Assembly (NCBI RefSeq): GCF_000473895.1
Contig: NZ_ASSJ01000055.1
Span: forward strand, 1 to 64,000
Source: Rubidibacter lacunae KORDI 51-2
GTDB taxonomy: Bacteria > Cyanobacteriota > Cyanobacteriia > Cyanobacteriales > Rubidibacteraceae
DNA length: 64,000 nucleotides
Direction of reading: 5' to 3'
Below the pieces are notes generated by a model, which was not told the origin of the DNA, ran no database searches, and saw only the letters and a program-made list of their open reading frames with translations. Made by a program: the position numbers and the translations under genes. This document shows positions 6,561-48,218 of the stretch, one piece after another. Numbering within the stretch: the first letter of the stretch is position 1; every line of letters begins with the position of its first letter.

Positions 6561-9269
6561 ATGATTGAAAGTGAGTTGTCTCCGCCTCAACTGGAACTAG
6601 CAATGGCAAATGCCATATCAATTTCTTTGCTATACACCTTGGGGCGGAAATATTTAGATATTCCATTAGATAAGGGCAAATATATTCGACCAGAATCGCC
6701 TCTAGCACGAAGCAGTGAAAGCTTTGATGGTATAGAGTTTTTACGGTTAGAAATGGTGGGTGACTCTAGTGATTCTTTATTCAATGACCCATTGATGGCT
6801 TTGCAAACAGCTTTAGCCTCTTGCCATCACCCCAAACATTGCACATTAATTTTTATTGTTTCTAGTGATGGAAATAATACTCACATTTACTTAGGTATTC
6901 GTCGTAGTGATCATACTGACTATCTAACCAAAGATTTCGTCAAGAATGTGGGTAATTTCCTGGAAGGAAATTGGTCTGGCACAAAGCTTGTTCCATGTTA
7001 TCCAGAAAGCTCAGAATTTCAAACTCGTATTATCAATCCTTTAAACAAAAACTTGAGGTATATTAATGCTTTAACAGGGATTCCTTCCCTGAAAGCAGGG
7101 GAAAATCCTGGTTATCCTCAAAGCTTGGATCGTTTGATTACTGGGTTACGTGGCTCACCGTTTATGTACATGATTGTAGCTGAGCCAATGGACCAAGGAG
7201 ATGTCAATCAGGCGATTCATCAACTCCGAGAATTAATGGGAAGAGTGCATTCTCTAAGTAAGGTTACTTCGAATGAAACCTTTTCTGAAAATATCTCCGA
7301 AGCCCTGGGAAGAACAGAAAGTTTTGGGAAATCAGTCGCTGATGGAATAAATTTCAATGAAGCTCAATCAGATCAAAAAATTAAGGATATCATTAATTTG
7401 GTCAGCGCTGGGACTCTTGCTGTCGGAGCATTCTTTCCTCCTGCCGAGTTACTGATTGAAGTAGGCTTAGGCGCTTTGCTCCTTAAGGATTTTACACCAA
7501 CGAAACAAAAATCTTCGGGGATGAGCTCAACAATTACTGATAGTTTTGGTGAAAGCCTCTCTACAACAACTACCTTGGGAAAAGGTTTGGCACGGGCTTT
7601 TGGTCGGGAGTATATCAATACTCATGCTGAGGCAGCAAAAAGAATAGTTGAGAGGTACTTGAATCGCTTTGAGGAATCTCGTGCCTTAGGGTGTTGGAAT
7701 GTAGGTATTTACTTGTTGGCTGAAGAGCCGAATGTTGCACAGCAAGGAGCTATCCAACTCAAAGCTTTACTGAGTGGTGAACAAAGCTTTTTTGAACCGA
7801 TCCGTGTTCACAATCTGAGCCCAGGAAATGGAGAGGGGTGGAGACATGCCGTTCGCAAAGCTTTGCAGGAGTTTTGCCAACCTAGTTTAACACTTGTAAC
7901 GCCTAATAATCAAACCCCCCTTGTCCATCCTCTCGGCACCCCTTTTAACCATCTAACAACACCACTGAATGTTAAAGAGTTGGCATTACTTGTTAACATC
8001 CCTCAACGAGAAATACCTGGTGTAAAAGTGATGGCTAGCGCTAGTTTTAGCCTCAATCCTCCAACTATCGAGGACAATGATATTATTTTGGGGTATTTAT
8101 TAGAAGGCGGCAAACAAACAGGTTTAAACTATGGCATTCCCAAAAAAACCTTGGCAAAGCATGGCTTGGTCACTGGAATTACTGGGAGCGGAAAAACAAG
8201 CACTTGCCAGAAGCTTTTGAGTGAGTTACACCAAGAAAAGATTCCTCTATTAGTTATCGAGCCTGCCAAAACAGAGTATGTTGACTGGGCAATGGAGCTA
8301 AACAAAACCTTGCCGCAAGAAAAACATATTGCAGTTTATATGCCTGGTGTTAAGACTTGGCGTGGCATTGTGCTAAAAGAACAACTGGTTCTTAACCCTT
8401 TTGATGTTGTCTGGCTGCATAATAATACTCCTCAGGTTCTACCTCACATTGATCGGCTAAAGTCTATTTTAAATGCTGCTTTTCCCATGCAGGAAGTCTT
8501 ACCTATCATTCTTGAAGAGCTGATATTTGATGCCTACAATCACCATGGATGGCTAGATGATGAGTTGCCGCCTCTTAGTACCTCTCGCCCAACCTTCAGT
8601 CAATTGCGAAATAAAGTAGGAGATGTTGTCAAAAGTTTGGGATATGAAACAAAAATAACTGCTAATCTCACTGCTGCTTTGACGGCCCGCATACAGAGTT
8701 TTCGTCGAGGATGGAAAAAGCAATTATTTGATCGGACTCCATCGACTAAATGGAACAAGATTTTTGATCGTCCAGCAATCATAAACCTTTCTCATCTGGG
8801 AGATGATGCTGACAAAGCCTTTACTATGGCAATTCTATTGAATTTCCTTTACGAATACCGCCAAGCTCAATATGAGTTAGGGATTAAACAGCAACCTCTC
8901 TTTCATTTAACAGTAATCGAAGAAGCTCATCGAATTCTATCAAATGTTAGGGCGAGTTCTTTAGAGCAAGCAAGCCCCCAAGGCAAAGTAGCTGAGATGT
9001 TTTCCAATATTCTTTCAGAAATCCGCGCATATGGTGAAGGGTTTCTGATCGTAGATCAAGTACCATCTCGACTTATTCCTGACGTTGTTAAAAACACTAA
9101 TCTTAAGATTGTCCACCGCTTAGTTGCTTCTGATGACCGAGATTCTATGAGTACTGCAATGGCACTAACTTTAGAACAAACAAACATAATAAATCGCTTG
9201 CGTCCAGGACAATCAATCATCTATGGAGAACAAGACGACTTGGCAGCTTGGGTGCAAATATCTAAGTGA
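6561..9269 (+). CDS. HerA/FtsK-like ATPase (DUF87-type) with N-terminal extension
   Basis: Third gene of the cassette; 902 residues. The C-terminal third is a RecA-fold motor of the HerA/FtsK/VirB4 clade: Walker A GITGSGKT (539-546), the following strand VIEPAKTEY (565-573), Walker B LTVIEEAH (783-790), sensor-like IVDQVPSRL and the arginine-finger strand NTNLKIVHRL (845-854). Such ATPases form hexamers that pump or remodel DNA, or act as motors in defence systems. The first 500 residues match nothing I can name. They contain a hydrophobic segment at about 278-308 (LVSAGTLAVGAFF and VGLGALLL), the third such segment in three consecutive proteins. DNA binding and any nuclease partner are not visible. 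Confidence 0.8.
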   Translation: MIESELSPPQLELAMANAISISLLYTLGRKYLDIPLDKGKYIRPESPLARSSESFDGIEFLRLEMVGDSSDSLFNDPLMALQTALASCHHPKHCTLIFIVSSDGNNTHIYLGIRRSDHTDYLTKDFVKNVGNFLEGNWSGTKLVPCYPESSEFQTRIINPLNKNLRYINALTGIPSLKAGENPGYPQSLDRLITGLRGSPFMYMIVAEPMDQGDVNQAIHQLRELMGRVHSLSKVTSNETFSENISEALGRTESFGKSVADGINFNEAQSDQKIKDIINLVSAGTLAVGAFFPPAELLIEVGLGALLLKDFTPTKQKSSGMSSTITDSFGESLSTTTTLGKGLARAFGREYINTHAEAAKRIVERYLNRFEESRALGCWNVGIYLLAEEPNVAQQGAIQLKALLSGEQSFFEPIRVHNLSPGNGEGWRHAVRKALQEFCQPSLTLVTPNNQTPLVHPLGTPFNHLTTPLNVKELALLVNIPQREIPGVKVMASASFSLNPPTIEDNDIILGYLLEGGKQTGLNYGIPKKTLAKHGLVTGITGSGKTSTCQKLLSELHQEKIPLLVIEPAKTEYVDWAMELNKTLPQEKHIAVYMPGVKTWRGIVLKEQLVLNPFDVVWLHNNTPQVLPHIDRLKSILNAAFPMQEVLPIILEELIFDAYNHHGWLDDELPPLSTSRPTFSQLRNKVGDVVKSLGYETKITANLTAALTARIQSFRRGWKKQLFDRTPSTKWNKIFDRPAIINLSHLGDDADKAFTMAILLNFLYEYRQAQYELGIKQQPLFHLTVIEEAHRILSNVRASSLEQASPQGKVAEMFSNILSEIRAYGEGFLIVDQVPSRLIPDVVKNTNLKIVHRLVASDDRDSMSTAMALTLEQTNIINRLRPGQSIIYGEQDDLAAWVQISK

Positions 9270-43090: not shown

Positions 43091-43786
43091 ATGACAACCT
43101 ATTTTCGCCGCCCAAAATTCACAATTCCTCCTCTGGAAAATGGCGATCGACTCTCACGTTTGGAGTTCGAGCGCCGCTATCAAGCGATGCCAGATGTCAA
43201 AAAGGCAGAATTGATTGAGGGAATTGTTTTCTTGGCGTCTCCCCTCCGCTTCGAGCCGCACGCTGAACCTCACGCAGACCTCATTGGATGGCTGTGGATG
43301 TATGAAGTTGCAACACCTGGAGTACGTTTGGGGAACAACCCAACAGTCCGATTGGATCGAGATAATGAACTGCAGCCCGATGCAGTTTTGCGGCTAGATG
43401 CACGCGCAGGCGGCCAGTCCCAGATTAGCGAAGACGGTTACATCGAGGGCGCGCCAGAGTTGGTTGCTGAAATTTCAGCCAGCACAGCCAGCATTGACTT
43501 GGGCGATAAGTTGCGCGTTTATCGACGGAGTGGCGTTAAAGAGTATTTGGTTTGGCAAGTTTTTGACGAACGAATTGACTGGTTTCTTCTTGATGGAGAA
43601 GACTACATCGAGCTCAATAGCGACGAAGAGGGAGTGATACGAAGTTGCACCTTCCCTGGACTTTGGCTATCTCAACAGTCTGCGATCGTCGGAGATATGT
43701 CGCAGGTTGTTTTGGTCCTAGAGAAAGGGCTGGCCTCTCCCGATCACCAAGCTTTAATTGCATCAATGGAACAACCTGGAGGGTAG
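43091..43786 (+). CDS. Uma2-family (DUF820) PD-(D/E)XK-fold protein
   Basis: 231 residues. DUF820 proteins are abundant in cyanobacteria and share the restriction-endonuclease fold. The core is visible as ELQPDAVLR (catalytic Asp), APELVAEISAS (Glu) and the VKEYLVWQV strand with a lysine. The cellular role is unknown, as for the family. The N-terminal helix (LSRLEFERRYQAM) and LIEGIVFLASP are standard. The Uma2 gene is isolated. Confidence 0.85.
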   Translation: MTTYFRRPKFTIPPLENGDRLSRLEFERRYQAMPDVKKAELIEGIVFLASPLRFEPHAEPHADLIGWLWMYEVATPGVRLGNNPTVRLDRDNELQPDAVLRLDARAGGQSQISEDGYIEGAPELVAEISASTASIDLGDKLRVYRRSGVKEYLVWQVFDERIDWFLLDGEDYIELNSDEEGVIRSCTFPGLWLSQQSAIVGDMSQVVLVLEKGLASPDHQALIASMEQPGG

Positions 43787-44974
43787 TACGGTCGCGCTAA
43801 AGTGATGCCTAACTATATGCTAGAGTTGCTAGGATCCGAGCATGTAGTGACTGCAATTTAACCGGCACTAGTTAAAGATTCGACGCTTAATATAAAACCG
43901 CTGCGGCGATAGCGATCGCCCCACACCGATCGCCCCACACCGATCGCTCCCACTAAAATTTCGAGTTCGGTTTGTATCGGGACTTCCTATCCTCAAGCTC
44001 GGCAGTAGCACTAAAGAGATATTCATGTGGTGTAGTAATGAATGAAATTCCACAACCAGCCAATGCGTTCGGACAGAAACTTAGCACAAGCTAAACTCCG
44101 CCACACAAACCGTCAAAGCTGCTGGCGCAAGATACAGTTGAAGCTCGATATAGCTGGTCTTGCCTTGGCTAACTGACAAATTTCCAGGAACCTCTGTAAA
44201 CTTGCCACGAGCTTACATGGTTTTAGGCACTTGTGTCAGTCGGGGTCTTACTTTTCTGGTTAGTGAAGACCTGATAGCATTTGGAGGGCAGCACGCCTCG
44301 ATATCGGCTTCCCAGTCATCGCTATAGGAAACGGAAAAACTTTAGATTTGCCGAGAGAATTAACGCTCAGAGCACTTCAGCACGCTTGCGATCTCGCGAA
44401 CCGAGGTGGGCGCAGAGATTTCTCGGTTTGGACATCGAGCACCAGCCAGACCCAAAGCTTATTGCCTATGCCGTAAACAAACAACCACATTTAGTCACCT
44501 TGCATTTTAGAGAGGTTCTTTAGGTACACTAAAGCCGTGCGCTGAATGTGCAGCTTTGACATTGACGTAATCCCTAAGCCATTGCTCGGAAGCCCTTACG
44601 GCTCGGATAATTCCAAACATGGAAACGCGCTCCATCATCAGTGATGCGGCGAGTGCGCGGGCAGCATCAAAGGTCTTGTAGCTTGGACTCTAGACAAACT
44701 GGTTGCCTCCCTGCCCATTGAGAAGGCGCGGTTTGCCCATGTGGATATGACCATTCTTAACCGCGGACCGAGCTTGGCAAGCGGGCACTGAGCCAAGGAG
44801 TGAACGGGATGACTTCCAGGACATCCAAGCAAACCTATCATTAAGACTTGGGCTTTAACAACTCCTCTACTGAGAAGATTCACACACTTCAGATTCACAA
44901 ATTACTTCCCATCGGTCATCCAAAATTTGGAATTTGTAATATTTCTGCCAAAGCTGTAACACTGCCTGCCGCTA
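43787..44974. other. gene-poor accessory spacer
   Basis: About 1.2 kb. It holds three tandem 14 bp copies of CGATCGCCCCACAC-like sequence (43913-43953), MITE copy C, and no convincing gene. ORFs around 44281-44523 and 44638-44898 have no recognisable content. Confidence 0.5.
44168..44243 (-). repeat. 77 bp palindromic MITE, copy C (inverted)
   Basis: Reverse complement of this stretch reads CGACTGACACAAGTGCCTA and ends CAAATTTGTCAGTTAGC; it aligns along its length with copy A. Orientation is opposite to copies A and B. Confidence 0.65.
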
Positions 44975-45008
44975 TTTTTAATGATTCTCATTTTTTAATG
45001 ATTCTCAT
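44975..45008. promoter_or_regulatory. tandem palindromic boxes (2 x 17 bp)
   Basis: Two perfect 17-mers, each TTTTTAATGATTCTCAT, are joined head to tail. Each holds the dyad AATGA-TTC-TCATT, which matches 11 of 13 bases of the Fur core AATGATAATCATT. They lie about 65 bp upstream of the promoter of the ParA-fusion operon. They could be Fur sites or an autoregulatory operator or partition site. The choice is open. Confidence 0.55.
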
Positions 45009-45071
45009 TCAAGAGAAACTATTATCTTGGATCGACTTGCATACTTAATCATATGTATTATTTCACTTGTA

Positions 45072-45099
45072 TTGTCAGTTAGGTAAATGGGTGTATACT
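45072..45099 (+). promoter_or_regulatory. sigma-70-type promoter of the nuclease-ParA operon
   Basis: TTGTCA (45072-45077), a 16 bp spacer, then TATACT (45094-45099). It stands 42 bp before the first ATG at 45142 and is the only close match in this stretch. Confidence 0.55.
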
Positions 45100-45141
45100 G
45101 TTCACCAGTGCAAATAGAGCGCCAGTTGTATACAAGCTTCG

Positions 45142-46575
45142 ATGGCAAATTTTAAGGAAGAAATCGCCGATTTACTATTCCAAGTCCGGAAAGACTGCAG
45201 TGAGAGCGCTCTAGAAAGTGAGTTTGTTAAGCCTCTGCTTCGTTTACTTGGATACTCAGAAAGTGACTGGAGCGAACAAGCATATGCAGGTAAGTGCAGG
45301 ATTGACTTCCTCATTGCAACTCAACGTCCTGCGCTTACACAGCATTTTTTGATCGTCGAAGTCAAGGCACCCCGTAAGTCGACATCTAACGGACTTTGGC
45401 AACTTCACCGCTATCTTCGGATTACTGGCTCGGTTTTCGGACTGTTAACTAATGGCTTAAGCCTTAAGGTTCTCTACAATCATAATGGAGAGGTTTGCGA
45501 GCTCCTAACATTAGACAAAAATAGTTTGCATAAACAATCCGATATTTTTCGAGGATTGCTGTGCAAACATTCTTGTGAGCGAGTTGTGGAGCGATTCGAG
45601 CACAGCAACAGGAAAGTGCATGCGTTTGTATTGAGCAGACTGTTAGCCGTCCTAGGTGACAGCCAGCCATTACTTGCCTTAAAATACAAGCAAAACCCAA
45701 ACAGAGAGGGAGGTTCGGGAATGATCGTCACTGTTTTCAACAACAAAGGTGGTGTAGGTAAAACTACTCTTACATTGAATTTGGGGGCAGCACTCAATCG
45801 CCTTGGTAAGCGAGTACTGCTCATTGACATAGACCCGCAAGCCAACCTCACTCAAGGTCTGGGTGTCGACCCTCTCTCTGACGTGGAAAAAGCTGGCAAG
45901 ATGGATGTGGGCGATCTTCTTTTGAAAGCCAAAGTCAAGGTAGATGAGGTTGCAATCTTGAAGCGCTGGAAGGCTACCGAGCTCTCAATTGTTCCCAGCC
46001 ATATACGACTTAGTTATAAGGAGCCCGACCTACTTGGCACTATTGATGTGGACAATGTCTTAGCCAAGAAGTTAAAGGAGTACAAAAACAACTACGATTT
46101 TGTCCTTATCGATCCCCCTCCTTCTTTTGGAAAGGTTAACAACATTTCACTGATGGCTTCTGACAGTGTCCTGATTCCTACACAACTTGCTCCTTACCCA
46201 ATTCGCGCTTTGGAGTACGTGATGGATAGAGCTTTTGCTGTGGACGATGCCAGAGAAAAACCCCTGAATATACTGGGTATCGCCGTAAGTATGTTCAGCC
46301 GCGCCTCAAGCAAGGTCAATGATGAGATGCGCCAAGAGATTTATCGGATGCTTGGGAACGATCCACGCCGTAAAGAGGTAGGGCTTTTACCTGAATCAAC
46401 CTGGATCCCTCAACTGAATGTTGTCTCAACAAACTCCCTGCATGGCAAGCCCTTAAGCGAGTTTGAGTTTGACGAAAGTTTGCCGACTAAGGACAGAGAT
46501 GCTGCTTTGGATGCACTATCATGCTACAAAAACTTAGCCAAGCATTTATTAGTGGCATGCGAACCTGGCCGTTAA
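45142..46575 (+). CDS. HsdR-N/PD-(D/E)XK domain fused to ParA ATPase
   Basis: 477 residues in two parts. Residues 1-about 180 resemble the type I restriction HsdR N-terminal nuclease-like domain: SEFVKPLLRLLGY (E27), CRIDFLIA (D55) and FLIVEVKAPRK (E73, K75), the E..D..ExK signature. Residues about 194-477 are ParA/Soj: deviant Walker A KGGVGKTT (202-209), LLIDIDPQANLTQGL and FVLIDPPPS. The gap between the parts carries GGGAGG followed after 7 bases by ATG 45721 in frame, so ParA alone might also be made. It is followed at once by a ParB-like gene. No HIP1 octamer occurs in either gene, which suggests transfer. The fusion could be a plasmid-partition gene, or a defence system. Confidence 0.85.
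   Translation: MANFKEEIADLLFQVRKDCSESALESEFVKPLLRLLGYSESDWSEQAYAGKCRIDFLIATQRPALTQHFLIVEVKAPRKSTSNGLWQLHRYLRITGSVFGLLTNGLSLKVLYNHNGEVCELLTLDKNSLHKQSDIFRGLLCKHSCERVVERFEHSNRKVHAFVLSRLLAVLGDSQPLLALKYKQNPNREGGSGMIVTVFNNKGGVGKTTLTLNLGAALNRLGKRVLLIDIDPQANLTQGLGVDPLSDVEKAGKMDVGDLLLKAKVKVDEVAILKRWKATELSIVPSHIRLSYKEPDLLGTIDVDNVLAKKLKEYKNNYDFVLIDPPPSFGKVNNISLMASDSVLIPTQLAPYPIRALEYVMDRAFAVDDAREKPLNILGIAVSMFSRASSKVNDEMRQEIYRMLGNDPRRKEVGLLPESTWIPQLNVVSTNSLHGKPLSEFEFDESLPTKDRDAALDALSCYKNLAKHLLVACEPGR
45706..45723 (+). promoter_or_regulatory. internal ribosome-binding site and ATG (ParA-only start)
   Basis: GAGGGAGGT ends seven bases before ATG 45721, in frame, exactly at the domain junction. It suggests a second, nuclease-free ParA product. 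No such site is expected by chance at this place, but this is unproven. Confidence 0.5.
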
Positions 46576-46590
46576 AGGAGGCCCAACACT

Positions 46591-47424
46591 ATGGATAGAG
46601 CAGAACGGCAGCAGCGAATCATTGAGTATTTGAAAATCAGACCACTCAATCGCGGCCAGGTCGAAACAGAGCTGCTTAAGGTGCCGAATCGAGATGCTGT
46701 TACGATCCCCGAACCTCGCCGCATTGTTTTGAGGAAAAGCTTACAAGAGCAAGAAGTCAACTTGCTGCCGATTGTTATTCGTCGGATAGAGCCTGATGAA
46801 GAAGAGCGAGAGTATGAGGTTGTTTTCGGTGAGGACTGGGTGATTCTTGCAGAAGAACTAAATATAGAACGCATGTGGGCTTTAGTCTTCGATTTGACTG
46901 ATGAGCAAGTCGAGGTTGCACGTGCTGAAATGGCTGAATTACATAGAGGAGAAGTTGTTGACGATGTTAGTATCCCTGCTGTCCCGGCACCTTCAGGGCT
47001 AACGCTTACCCAAGTCGATGCCCTTTTGCATCAGCGGCTGGAGCAACACGATAAAGCACTTCGAGATGAGATTGGAGAGCTTACACAAATTGTGAAATCT
47101 CTTGCCGGTAGCAGCTTCGCTGGCTCTACCAAGCCTTTATCTGGGTCGAGTGAGTCACTGACAGAAGCATTCGCAAGTCTTGCTCGGCAAGTTGAAGCTG
47201 GCCTGGCTGCAGGCAATCTCTCTGTCAACCTTTCAATTACTACGATTTCTAAAGTTGAACCTCCAGGAATCAAAGAATACAGAGAACTTTTTGATGTAAT
47301 GACAGTAGCAAGTCTCAAATCGTATGCCAGTAAGCATGGGATCGGTCTTGCCGGTGCAAAAAAGAAGGCGGAAATACTTGAGAGAATGATTGAATGGTGT
47401 CAGCAAAGCATTGGCTCGCAATAG
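46591..47424 (+). CDS. ParB/sulfiredoxin-like protein with C-terminal SAP/Rho-N-like helix pair
   Basis: 277 residues. AAAGGAGG, which overlaps the end of the ParA fusion gene, is the ribosome-binding site. Residues about 40-112 resemble the ParB N-terminal fold (NLLPIVIRRIEPDEE, YEVVFGEDWVILAEELNI, then ALVFDLTDEQVEVARAEM). Residues about 139-175 form a coiled coil, 176-190 a Ser/Gly linker. Residues about 232-268 (ELFDVMTVASLKSYASKHGI, then KKKAEILERMI) look like a Rho-N/SAP helical DNA-binding module. A classical ParB HTH is not seen. The gene is partner to the ParA fusion. Confidence 0.65.
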   Translation: MDRAERQQRIIEYLKIRPLNRGQVETELLKVPNRDAVTIPEPRRIVLRKSLQEQEVNLLPIVIRRIEPDEEEREYEVVFGEDWVILAEELNIERMWALVFDLTDEQVEVARAEMAELHRGEVVDDVSIPAVPAPSGLTLTQVDALLHQRLEQHDKALRDEIGELTQIVKSLAGSSFAGSTKPLSGSSESLTEAFASLARQVEAGLAAGNLSVNLSITTISKVEPPGIKEYRELFDVMTVASLKSYASKHGIGLAGAKKKAEILERMIEWCQQSIGSQ

Positions 47425-47660
47425 CGGTACACATTCTTGCTCGAGTTTGAGTTGACGGGACTGGAAGTTGACGACCCTTTCTTCACAACAAGGTTTTCGA
47501 TTGGGCGACATCGATCGCTTTCCGTCCTGGCTTGCTCTCAAACAGGGCGTTAGGGGCGTTGGTGCGGCTTCTTTGTTTGGTGCGTCCCTAAACGTCGAAT
47601 CCGTCTAAGCCCACTGGCCGGTCGCGGTAGACTGGCGGGGTCGTCACTCCCTACATTGCG

Positions 47661-48218
47661 ATGAGCCTGGGTTCCGAGCCGCCAAAACTGCTCAAAGAGC
47701 GCCTGTTCTATCAAGGGCGCAAGTTTCGCTACGAAGTCAACACCTATTGCTTGCCCAATGGCGCAAGCGGTGACTGGGAGTGCATTCGGCATCCCGGTGG
47801 AGCGCTAGCAGTCCCCGTGACGCCTGACGGACAGCTCGTATTGGTGCGGCAATATCGCTTCACGGTCAAGGGACGATTGTTGGAATTCCCTGCAGGTACC
47901 GTCGAAGTCAACGAAGACCCTGCCGAGACAATCCGCCGCGAAATCGAAGAAGAAACCGGCTACCGCGCCCATCAATGGCGATCGCTCGGCAAATTCGTCC
48001 TCTGCCCAGGCTACTCTGACGAGTACATCTACGCCTTCCTAGCCCAGCAACTCGAAAAACTCGACCTGCCGCCCGCCCAAGACGAAGACGAAGATATCGA
48101 AGTCGTGCTGATGTCGCCCCAGGAGTTCGAAGCAATCGTCTGTACCGGCGAACAAAACGTCGACGCAAAATCTATCGCCAGCTACTTTATGGCGAAACCG
48201 CTCTTGGGGCTAAGCTGA
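47661..48218 (+). CDS. NUDIX hydrolase (ADP-ribose pyrophosphatase-like)
   Basis: 185 residues. The NUDIX box is [20 protein letters not shown] followed by TGY, matching the GX5EX7REUXEEXGU signature. [20 protein letters not shown] before it is typical of ADP-ribose/NADH-type hydrolases. Likely splits ADP-ribose to AMP and ribose 5-phosphate. It is read in the same direction as the photolyase gene 76 bp downstream. Confidence 0.9.

Follow-up and report, generated by a model that had tools for sequence, protein, structure and literature searches.

The DNA analysed here, referred to below as the window, comprises positions 1 to 64,000 of contig NZ_ASSJ01000055.1 from the cyanobacterium Rubidibacter lacunae KORDI 51-2, whose genome is available as 4.15 Mb in 99 contigs. 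The window carries a two-gene cassette, in which a restriction-type nuclease domain and a complete ParA ATPase are joined in one polypeptide, and a gene for a ParB_N-like partner protein follows on the same strand after a spacing of 15 bp (Table 1). The anatomy of this cassette is established with high confidence.

Table 1. Coordinates of the cassette and its features in the window; residue numbers refer to the encoded protein, and E denotes an expectation value.
Feature	Position	Strand	Basis
Nuclease-ParA fusion gene, 477 amino acids (aa)	45142..46575	+	Open reading frame (ORF); HSDR_N_2 and AAA_31 profile matches
HsdR-N-type PD-(D/E)XK domain, residues 1-150	45142..45591	+	HSDR_N_2, PDDEXK_3; E21/D55/E73/K75/Y91 invariant in 60/60 fusions
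E21 codon, conserved early acidic residue	45202..45204	+	60/60 fusions
D55 codon, catalytic-type aspartate	45304..45306	+	60/60 fusions
E73-V-K75 codons, ExK motif	45358..45366	+	E and K in 60/60 fusions
Nuclease-ParA linker, variable in length among relatives	45592..45720	+	Alignment
ParA ATPase domain, residues 194-477	45721..46572	+	AAA_31 at 195-370, E 5.7e-44
ParA-kind Walker A, KGGVGKTT, residues 202-209	45745..45768	+	Each position invariant in 60/60 fusions
AAGGAGG, likely ribosome-binding site of the partner gene	46575..46581	+	Sequence; 9 nt before the partner ATG
ParB_N-like partner gene, 277 aa	46591..47424	+	ORF; ParB_N-like gene 3′ of 58/59 other full-length fusions
ParB_N-like core of the partner, residues 47-107; GEDW at the Box II position	46729..46911	+	ParB_N, E 0.0023, below cut-off
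SAP/Rho_N-like module of the partner, residues 237-265, presumed DNA-binding	47299..47385	+	SAP, E 0.057, below cut-off
AT-rich upstream stretch without a convincing gene, perhaps part of an inserted island	43787..45141	.	GC about 0.42-0.49; no HIP1 between 43912 and 47978

Domain architecture of the fusion and its partner

By sequence, the N-terminal domain of the fusion is an HsdR-N-type PD-(D/E)XK nuclease domain. The N-terminal 193 residues alone match the Pfam family HSDR_N_2 (E 3.3e-6, 27.6 bits against a cut-off of 25), and residues 1-150 match both HSDR_N_2 (2e-6) and PDDEXK_3 (1.9e-4), each just above its cut-off. Among 48 nuclease domains scanned, namely that of the window, 46 from the other 59 full-length fusions and a viral one, HSDR_N_2 was matched by 47 and HSDR_N by 46, as judged by E-value (E 0.01) and not by cut-offs. 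An alignment of the 60 full-length fusions, which fall into three divergent classes, has E21, D55, E73, K75, Y91 and G100 invariant, and E25 is retained in 57 of them. A preliminary description of the locus, made from the letters alone, had proposed a PD-(D/E)XK core with E27, D55, E73 and K75 as its HsdR-N-like residues. The profile matches and invariant residues support such a core, and D55, E73 and K75 keep their places in it, whereas E27 occurs in just one of the 60 fusions and the conserved early acid is E21. The ratio of nonsynonymous to synonymous substitution rates (dN/dS), estimated for 13 pairs picked among closer relatives, is about 0.06-0.30 in the nuclease domain, with purifying selection in 13 of 13.

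Structural comparisons were also made. Two single-sequence structure predictions, one of them by AlphaFold2, gave a mean predicted local distance difference test score of 35.5 and 38.7, too poor to use. A profile of the 48 nuclease domains reached the solved HsdR structure 3h1t in the PDB at an E-value of 0.035, a weak match. The top PDB match of the same profile, the designed repeat protein 7ue2 (1.8e-7), was judged spurious, as a repeated alignment with a gap beside the ExK stretch.

The remainder of the fusion is a complete ParA with an intact KGGVGKTT motif, exactly as had been described (Table 1). The protein encoded downstream is predicted to have a ParB-type fold. Matches of the window's own partner to ParB_N and SAP each lie under the Pfam cut-off. 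The partners form three families, B1 (to which the window's belongs), B2 and B3, and members of the other two give firmer matches: the B2 protein P0006 matches ParB_N above cut-off (8.6e-8), and the B3 protein P0004 ends in a Rho_N domain above cut-off (4.2e-8). In the PDB, Noc (4.2e-6) and ParB (2.6e-4) are among the matches of the B2 profile. Family B1 is more divergent, with ParB_N matched by 12 of 20 B1-type proteins (E 0.05) and Spo0J/ParB structures reached by the B1 profile at 0.024-0.028. The top PDB match of the B1 profile, a helical apolipoprotein (9.1e-5), was judged to be a coiled-coil match. As a separate observation, residues 1339-1406 of PDB 9k3a chain B, a tail protein, match the B2 profile at 3.5e-9, above any ParB/Noc structure.

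Beyond the ParB_N-like core, the partners end in modules of SAP/Rho_N, helix-hairpin-helix (HhH) or a third helical type, and each of these types, assigned by eye and in some cases backed by Pfam, is represented in B1 as well as in B2. Rho_N was found in 9 of the 20 B1-type proteins scanned, the window's own partner not being among the reported matches. The earlier picture of a ParB_N-like protein with a SAP/Rho_N-like end and without a normal helix-turn-helix (HTH) holds good: neither a central HTH nor a C-terminal dimerisation domain was detected in the window's partner, nor among the 25 of 52 families listed for the 20 proteins.

Two motifs are given for canonical ParB in PMC12704722, GxxR and LG[RK]GL. 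GxxR occurs at the position aligned with Box II in none of 60 partners (58 from other genomes, the window's and the viral one), and the ParA-binding motif LG[RK]GL is likewise found in none; in 10 of the 43 B2 partners, xxR follows a different glycine nearer the N-terminus. Since both motifs are missing from all 60, the partner is not to be called a ParB CTPase. It evolves faster than the nuclease and ParA parts in 13 of 13 pairs, with a dN/dS of about 0.23-0.75.

Recurrence across the phylum

The nuclease domain, used as a query against 386 genomes of the phylum, has a match in 64 of them, at one place each (E 0.001), and the surroundings of the match were examined in all 63 genomes besides that of the window. 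Recurrence of the fusion in other genomes had been set as a test by the preliminary description, and a full-length fusion is indeed present in 58 genomes, the window's included. Two genomes (G091 and G251) each carry a second fusion, of class 3, detected via a partner search, and the full-length fusions number 60 (15 of class 1, 43 of class 2 and 2 of class 3). Intact class 1 and class 2 fusions were not found together in any genome, but chance alone predicts only about 1.7 such genomes, and mutual exclusion of the classes is not claimed. In 6 of the 64 genomes, the fusion has a broken, split or cut frame (G060, G121, G080, G013, G300 and G286). In G300 (locus L114, 3577-4933, minus strand), a nuclease domain of 175 aa and a ParA of 284 aa are encoded by two overlapping ORFs, which may perhaps be a genuine split version.

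The partner gene accompanies the fusion closely. In 59 of 60 cases (58 of the 59 others, and the window), the fusion is followed on its own strand by a ParB_N-like gene; 57 of these 58 are within -74 to +33 bp of the fusion, and one, with a stop inside the partner, is at 228 bp (L110). The exception is G011, where the class 1 fusion lies at C1:1.19 Mb and the B1 gene apart from it, at C1:2.23 Mb. Counting this genome, a partner gene is present alongside all 60 fusions. In genus g12 (L033, L035-L037 and L040), a B1-type partner lies near a class 2 pair, and no class 1 ParA accompanies it.

Pairs free of the nuclease are also found. Class 2 ParA proteins of about 285-290 aa, without a nuclease and beside a ParB_N-like gene, are present in G111, G123, G011, G213 and G247 (the partner in G247 being assigned by Pfam), and a nuclease-free class 2 ParA pair with a shortened partner is present in G151. 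On one midpoint-rooted FastTree phylogeny without support values, these ParA proteins arise within the nuclease-bearing class at three points or more, and the pairs are therefore read as losses of the nuclease. A different arrangement is seen in G121 (L034, 4774-7974, minus strand), where a superfamily 1 helicase stretch and one in-frame stop are followed by a class 2 ParA and then a B2 partner. The helicase stretch matches AAA_11 and AAA_12 above cut-off, with a weak match to the MTES_1575/DUF559 nucleases at its start, below cut-off, and a swap of the effector domain is a possible interpretation.

Genomic setting and searches of viral, phage and plasmid records

Genus g37 offers a view of a fixed site. 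All 10 genomes of this genus were read next to c4, a gene identified by eye as desaturase-like, and in 8 of them the far flank, c47, was seen. The site holds a class 2 cassette in G387, G388, G255 and, cut by the contig end, G390, and a class 1 cassette in G389, G393 and G157. In G391 and G392 the site is empty, with only 114 or 63 bp. In G262 (L291, 1552-3983) it holds a gene for an HEC-01A/AbiLi-like ATPase, followed by a small gene, as well as a Uma2-like gene, and c47 is not in the fetched stretch. Short palindromic repeats of type GAGTCCTNNAGGACTC border the g37 cassettes and persist at the empty sites (L286-L293, L108, junctions by c4), and recombination between these repeats or between the flanks could therefore exchange the cassette.

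In many genomes (L099, L102, L116, L119, L041, L044, L046 and others), the cassette faces a second ParA-family gene, of about 294 aa (ParA-294), in head-to-head orientation. Within family f6, the cassette lies between ParA-294 and the gene c7 in L114, L116 and L119, and beyond c7 in L110 and L120; ParA-294 and c7 adjoin, 97 to 1068 bp apart, in 6 of 10 fetched genomes without a nuclease-domain match. A special link between cassette and ParA-294 was considered and is weakened by the presence of ParA-294 in 10 of 11 searched f6 genomes that lack the cassette, and by its unlinked position in G000. In the family of the window, G159 and G374 carry a NUDIX-photolyase gene pair without the cassette.

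In the window itself, the immediate neighbours of the pair are Uma2 and NUDIX genes. The GC content of the pair is 0.463 versus 0.542 for the window. The pair had been described as HIP1-free, and it is spanned by the largest HIP1 gap of the window (43912-47978, 4066 bp), which has 104 HIP1 sites over its 64 kb. A scan of the genome_contigs collection with the whole fusion found one locus, in which the ParA part only was matched. Elsewhere in the window, the ORF at 6561-9269 has a GC content at third codon positions of 0.33 versus 0.63-0.72 in 13 of 16 genes measured, and is perhaps foreign.

Among viral sequences, one 58-kb IMG/VR contig carries a class 3 fusion and its partner (P0003 and P0004), together with an HTH/IrrE gene and a Rad52-like gene. 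The viral fusion is 58 percent identical to two chromosomal class 3 fusions. A terminase-like ORF in L217 was read by eye; the profile phrog_2 matches this region at 3.5e-28, but it also matches 13 of 14 cellular controls. The class 1 alignment has 193 relatives in viral contigs, and among the best 80 of these only L159 extends into the nuclease domain proper. A class 3 query returned the contig of L159 itself and one ParA-only match, and the viral contigs contained no match to the B1 alignment or to class 2. Searched as a class 1 query only, the nuclease domain of the window had no match in 50,697 phage records (E 0.01). In plasmids, among the best 40 of 4042 matching records, some ParA matches seemed to extend into the N-terminal part; these were rejected as fusions, because the three loci read (L058, L059 and L060) hold ORFs of 257, 322 and 336 aa without a nuclease.

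Possible functions and relation to known systems

We propose, tentatively, that the pair is a two-gene DNA-conflict cassette, namely an ATP-gated nuclease that is steered by its partner and used against foreign DNA; this may be its function, and we have moderate confidence in a defence-like role as such. ParA binds DNA as an ATP-bound dimer, and its hydrolysis of ATP is accelerated by a ParB peptide (PMC12462528). On binding ATP, the ParA part of the fusion would dimerise on DNA and pair two nuclease domains, and paired PD-(D/E)XK domains could cut both strands. The partner would contact ParA and, via its C-terminal module, DNA, and so set the location and dwell time of the dimer. DNA that the partner marks or leaves unprotected would then be cut, most likely phage DNA or other incoming DNA. 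A ParA-partner pair without the nuclease would probably be a plain positioning device. The concept of a positioning pair with an added effector fits the presence of a partner gene with all 60 fusions, and of partner and ParA also without a nuclease. We lean towards foreign DNA as the target because of the patchy distribution (64/386 genomes), the empty sites, the exchange of classes, the apparent loss of the effector, the broken frames and the viral carrier. Further points in favour of the proposal are the invariance of the catalytic residues and Walker A in all 60 fusions, the purifying selection on the nuclease domain, the close linkage and faster evolution of the partner with its varying end module, and the HIP1-free, AT-rich composition of the window's copy. 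The preliminary description had suggested that the pair could destroy DNA lacking its partner, or serve defence or plasmid competition, and the empty sites, the exchange of classes and the viral carrier would suit these ideas.

Several observations weigh against this proposal. The same cassette site is kept across families, unlike the sites of hopping defence genes, and a defence-island setting was not found: among 108 immediate neighbours, no more than 17 have a PADLOC match (1e-10), a count made without a background control, and 6 of these matches are to PDC-S03, a family that a Uma2-like gene matches too. The 108 were scanned out of 116 possible immediate neighbours of 58 pairs, those of the window being excluded, after 3 of more than 900 aa had been dropped and with 5 absent at ends. 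Kinship with PDC-M28B was not accepted, as the PADLOC match below E 0.001 covers only the ParA P-loop. The viral contig has no match to Terminase_6C, and its phage status rests on IMG/VR and a reading by eye. The nuclease domain of the window, again as a class 1 query only, has no match in 72,556 plasmid records (1e-5). The apparent effector swap in G121 is a single broken case, in which the nuclease match lies below cut-off and the class 1 pair of the same genome is also broken. Finally, parS-like repeats, which the preliminary description had suggested looking for, were not found beside the window's pair: positions 43780-45200 contain no inverted repeats, one 17-nt tandem duplication (44975-45008, upstream of the fusion gene) and one of 14 nt, and positions 46560-47700 contain one inverted pair, 298 nt apart.

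A more elaborate scheme is a new class of genome surveillance, in which a ParA motor of the kind that normally moves DNA would scan the nucleoid and, gated by ATP, cut both strands. The DNA to be cut would be chosen by an adaptor of ParB fold that works independently of CTP and whose DNA-sensing ends, SAP/Rho_N or HhH, can be exchanged. Cyanobacteria would trade complete cassettes of one class for those of another at fixed sites, and a cassette carried by a phage would help it to compete. We consider this scheme as a whole rather unlikely. Cyanobacteria are often polyploid, and ParA and its partner could instead serve chromosome maintenance by positioning or segregating chromosome copies, with the nuclease trimming or resolving stalled or entangled DNA. 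Such a role would suit the single nuclease-domain match in each of the 64 genomes, positions that are stable across families, neighbours that look housekeeping-like by eye and rarely match defence models, the persistence of nuclease-free ParA-partner pairs, and partner ends of a general DNA-binding type. A maintenance factor that leaves no nuclease-domain match in 322 of 386 genomes, is missing from sites within the same genus or family, changes class at one site and has a broken or split frame in 6 of 64 genomes is harder to picture, and we hold this explanation to be unlikely.

Matches of the window's nuclease domain to plasmid or phage records (class 1 query only) and parS-like repeats beside the window's pair are both missing, the immediate neighbours there are the Uma2 and NUDIX genes, and the viral fusion lies on one contig only, without a Terminase_6C match. 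All of this speaks against a module for partition or exclusion that came from a temperate phage or an integrated element, was later domesticated, and would use its nuclease to remove competing replicons. This origin seems distinctly unlikely to us, even given the class 3 copy on the 58-kb IMG/VR contig with HTH/IrrE-type regulators and a Rad52-like gene, the ParA-and-partner anatomy and the foreign composition in the window. The tight coupling of the two genes, with frames that often overlap or touch, and the partner gene found in the genome for 60 of 60 fusions and adjacent for 59, recall a toxin-antitoxin pair, with the fusion as a DNA-damaging toxin and the partner as its antitoxin. However, a B1 partner is present in G129 without any nuclease-domain match and in genus g12 without a class 1 fusion, and ParA and partner persist together without a nuclease, an arrangement for which a pure antitoxin would have no use; we therefore find a toxin-antitoxin function very doubtful.

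ParA-type ATPases are movers of DNA and other cargo. Here, ParA and a restriction-type nuclease are found in one chain, and the active-site residues have been retained in all three divergent classes. Should the pair prove to cut DNA under the control of ParA, the partition machinery would become a sensor-effector. Laboratory cyanobacteria, of which many are polyploid, would then also offer a defined locus at which to study how a cell distinguishes its own DNA from DNA that is foreign or misplaced.

The carboxysome-positioning system McdA-McdB resembles the cassette in combining a cyanobacterial ParA-type ATPase with a non-canonical adaptor; to our knowledge, it contains no nuclease and no ParB-fold adaptor. 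Noncanonical proteins of the ParB-CTPase fold, in which this fold is joined to other domains, offer another likeness (Kaljevic et al. 2025, PMC12704722). In the available part of that paper, a DUF3850 fusion is the only one named as consistently adjoining parA, and there is no mention of a fusion to SAP/Rho_N or HhH next to a nuclease-ParA. We found no description of a nuclease-ParA fusion in the literature searched.

With the N-terminal nuclease of type I restriction HsdR proteins (PF13588/PF04313), the cassette has a common domain, as judged by profile and catalytic residues, but here the nuclease is joined to ParA instead of a restriction helicase; HsdM and HsdS are not among the immediate neighbours of the window's pair, the rest of the genome not having been searched for them. 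The two-part ATPase-nuclease defence systems in PADLOC follow a similar logic of an ATPase combined with a nuclease. A parallel in gene order is ParABS, which consists of the ParA ATPase, the ParB CTPase and parS: the cassette likewise has a ParA Walker A and, directly downstream, a partner with a predicted ParB_N fold. It differs from ParABS in that its ParA is fused to a nuclease, and in that its partner, lacking GxxR, LG[RK]GL and a detected HTH, ends in a SAP/Rho_N- or HhH-like module.

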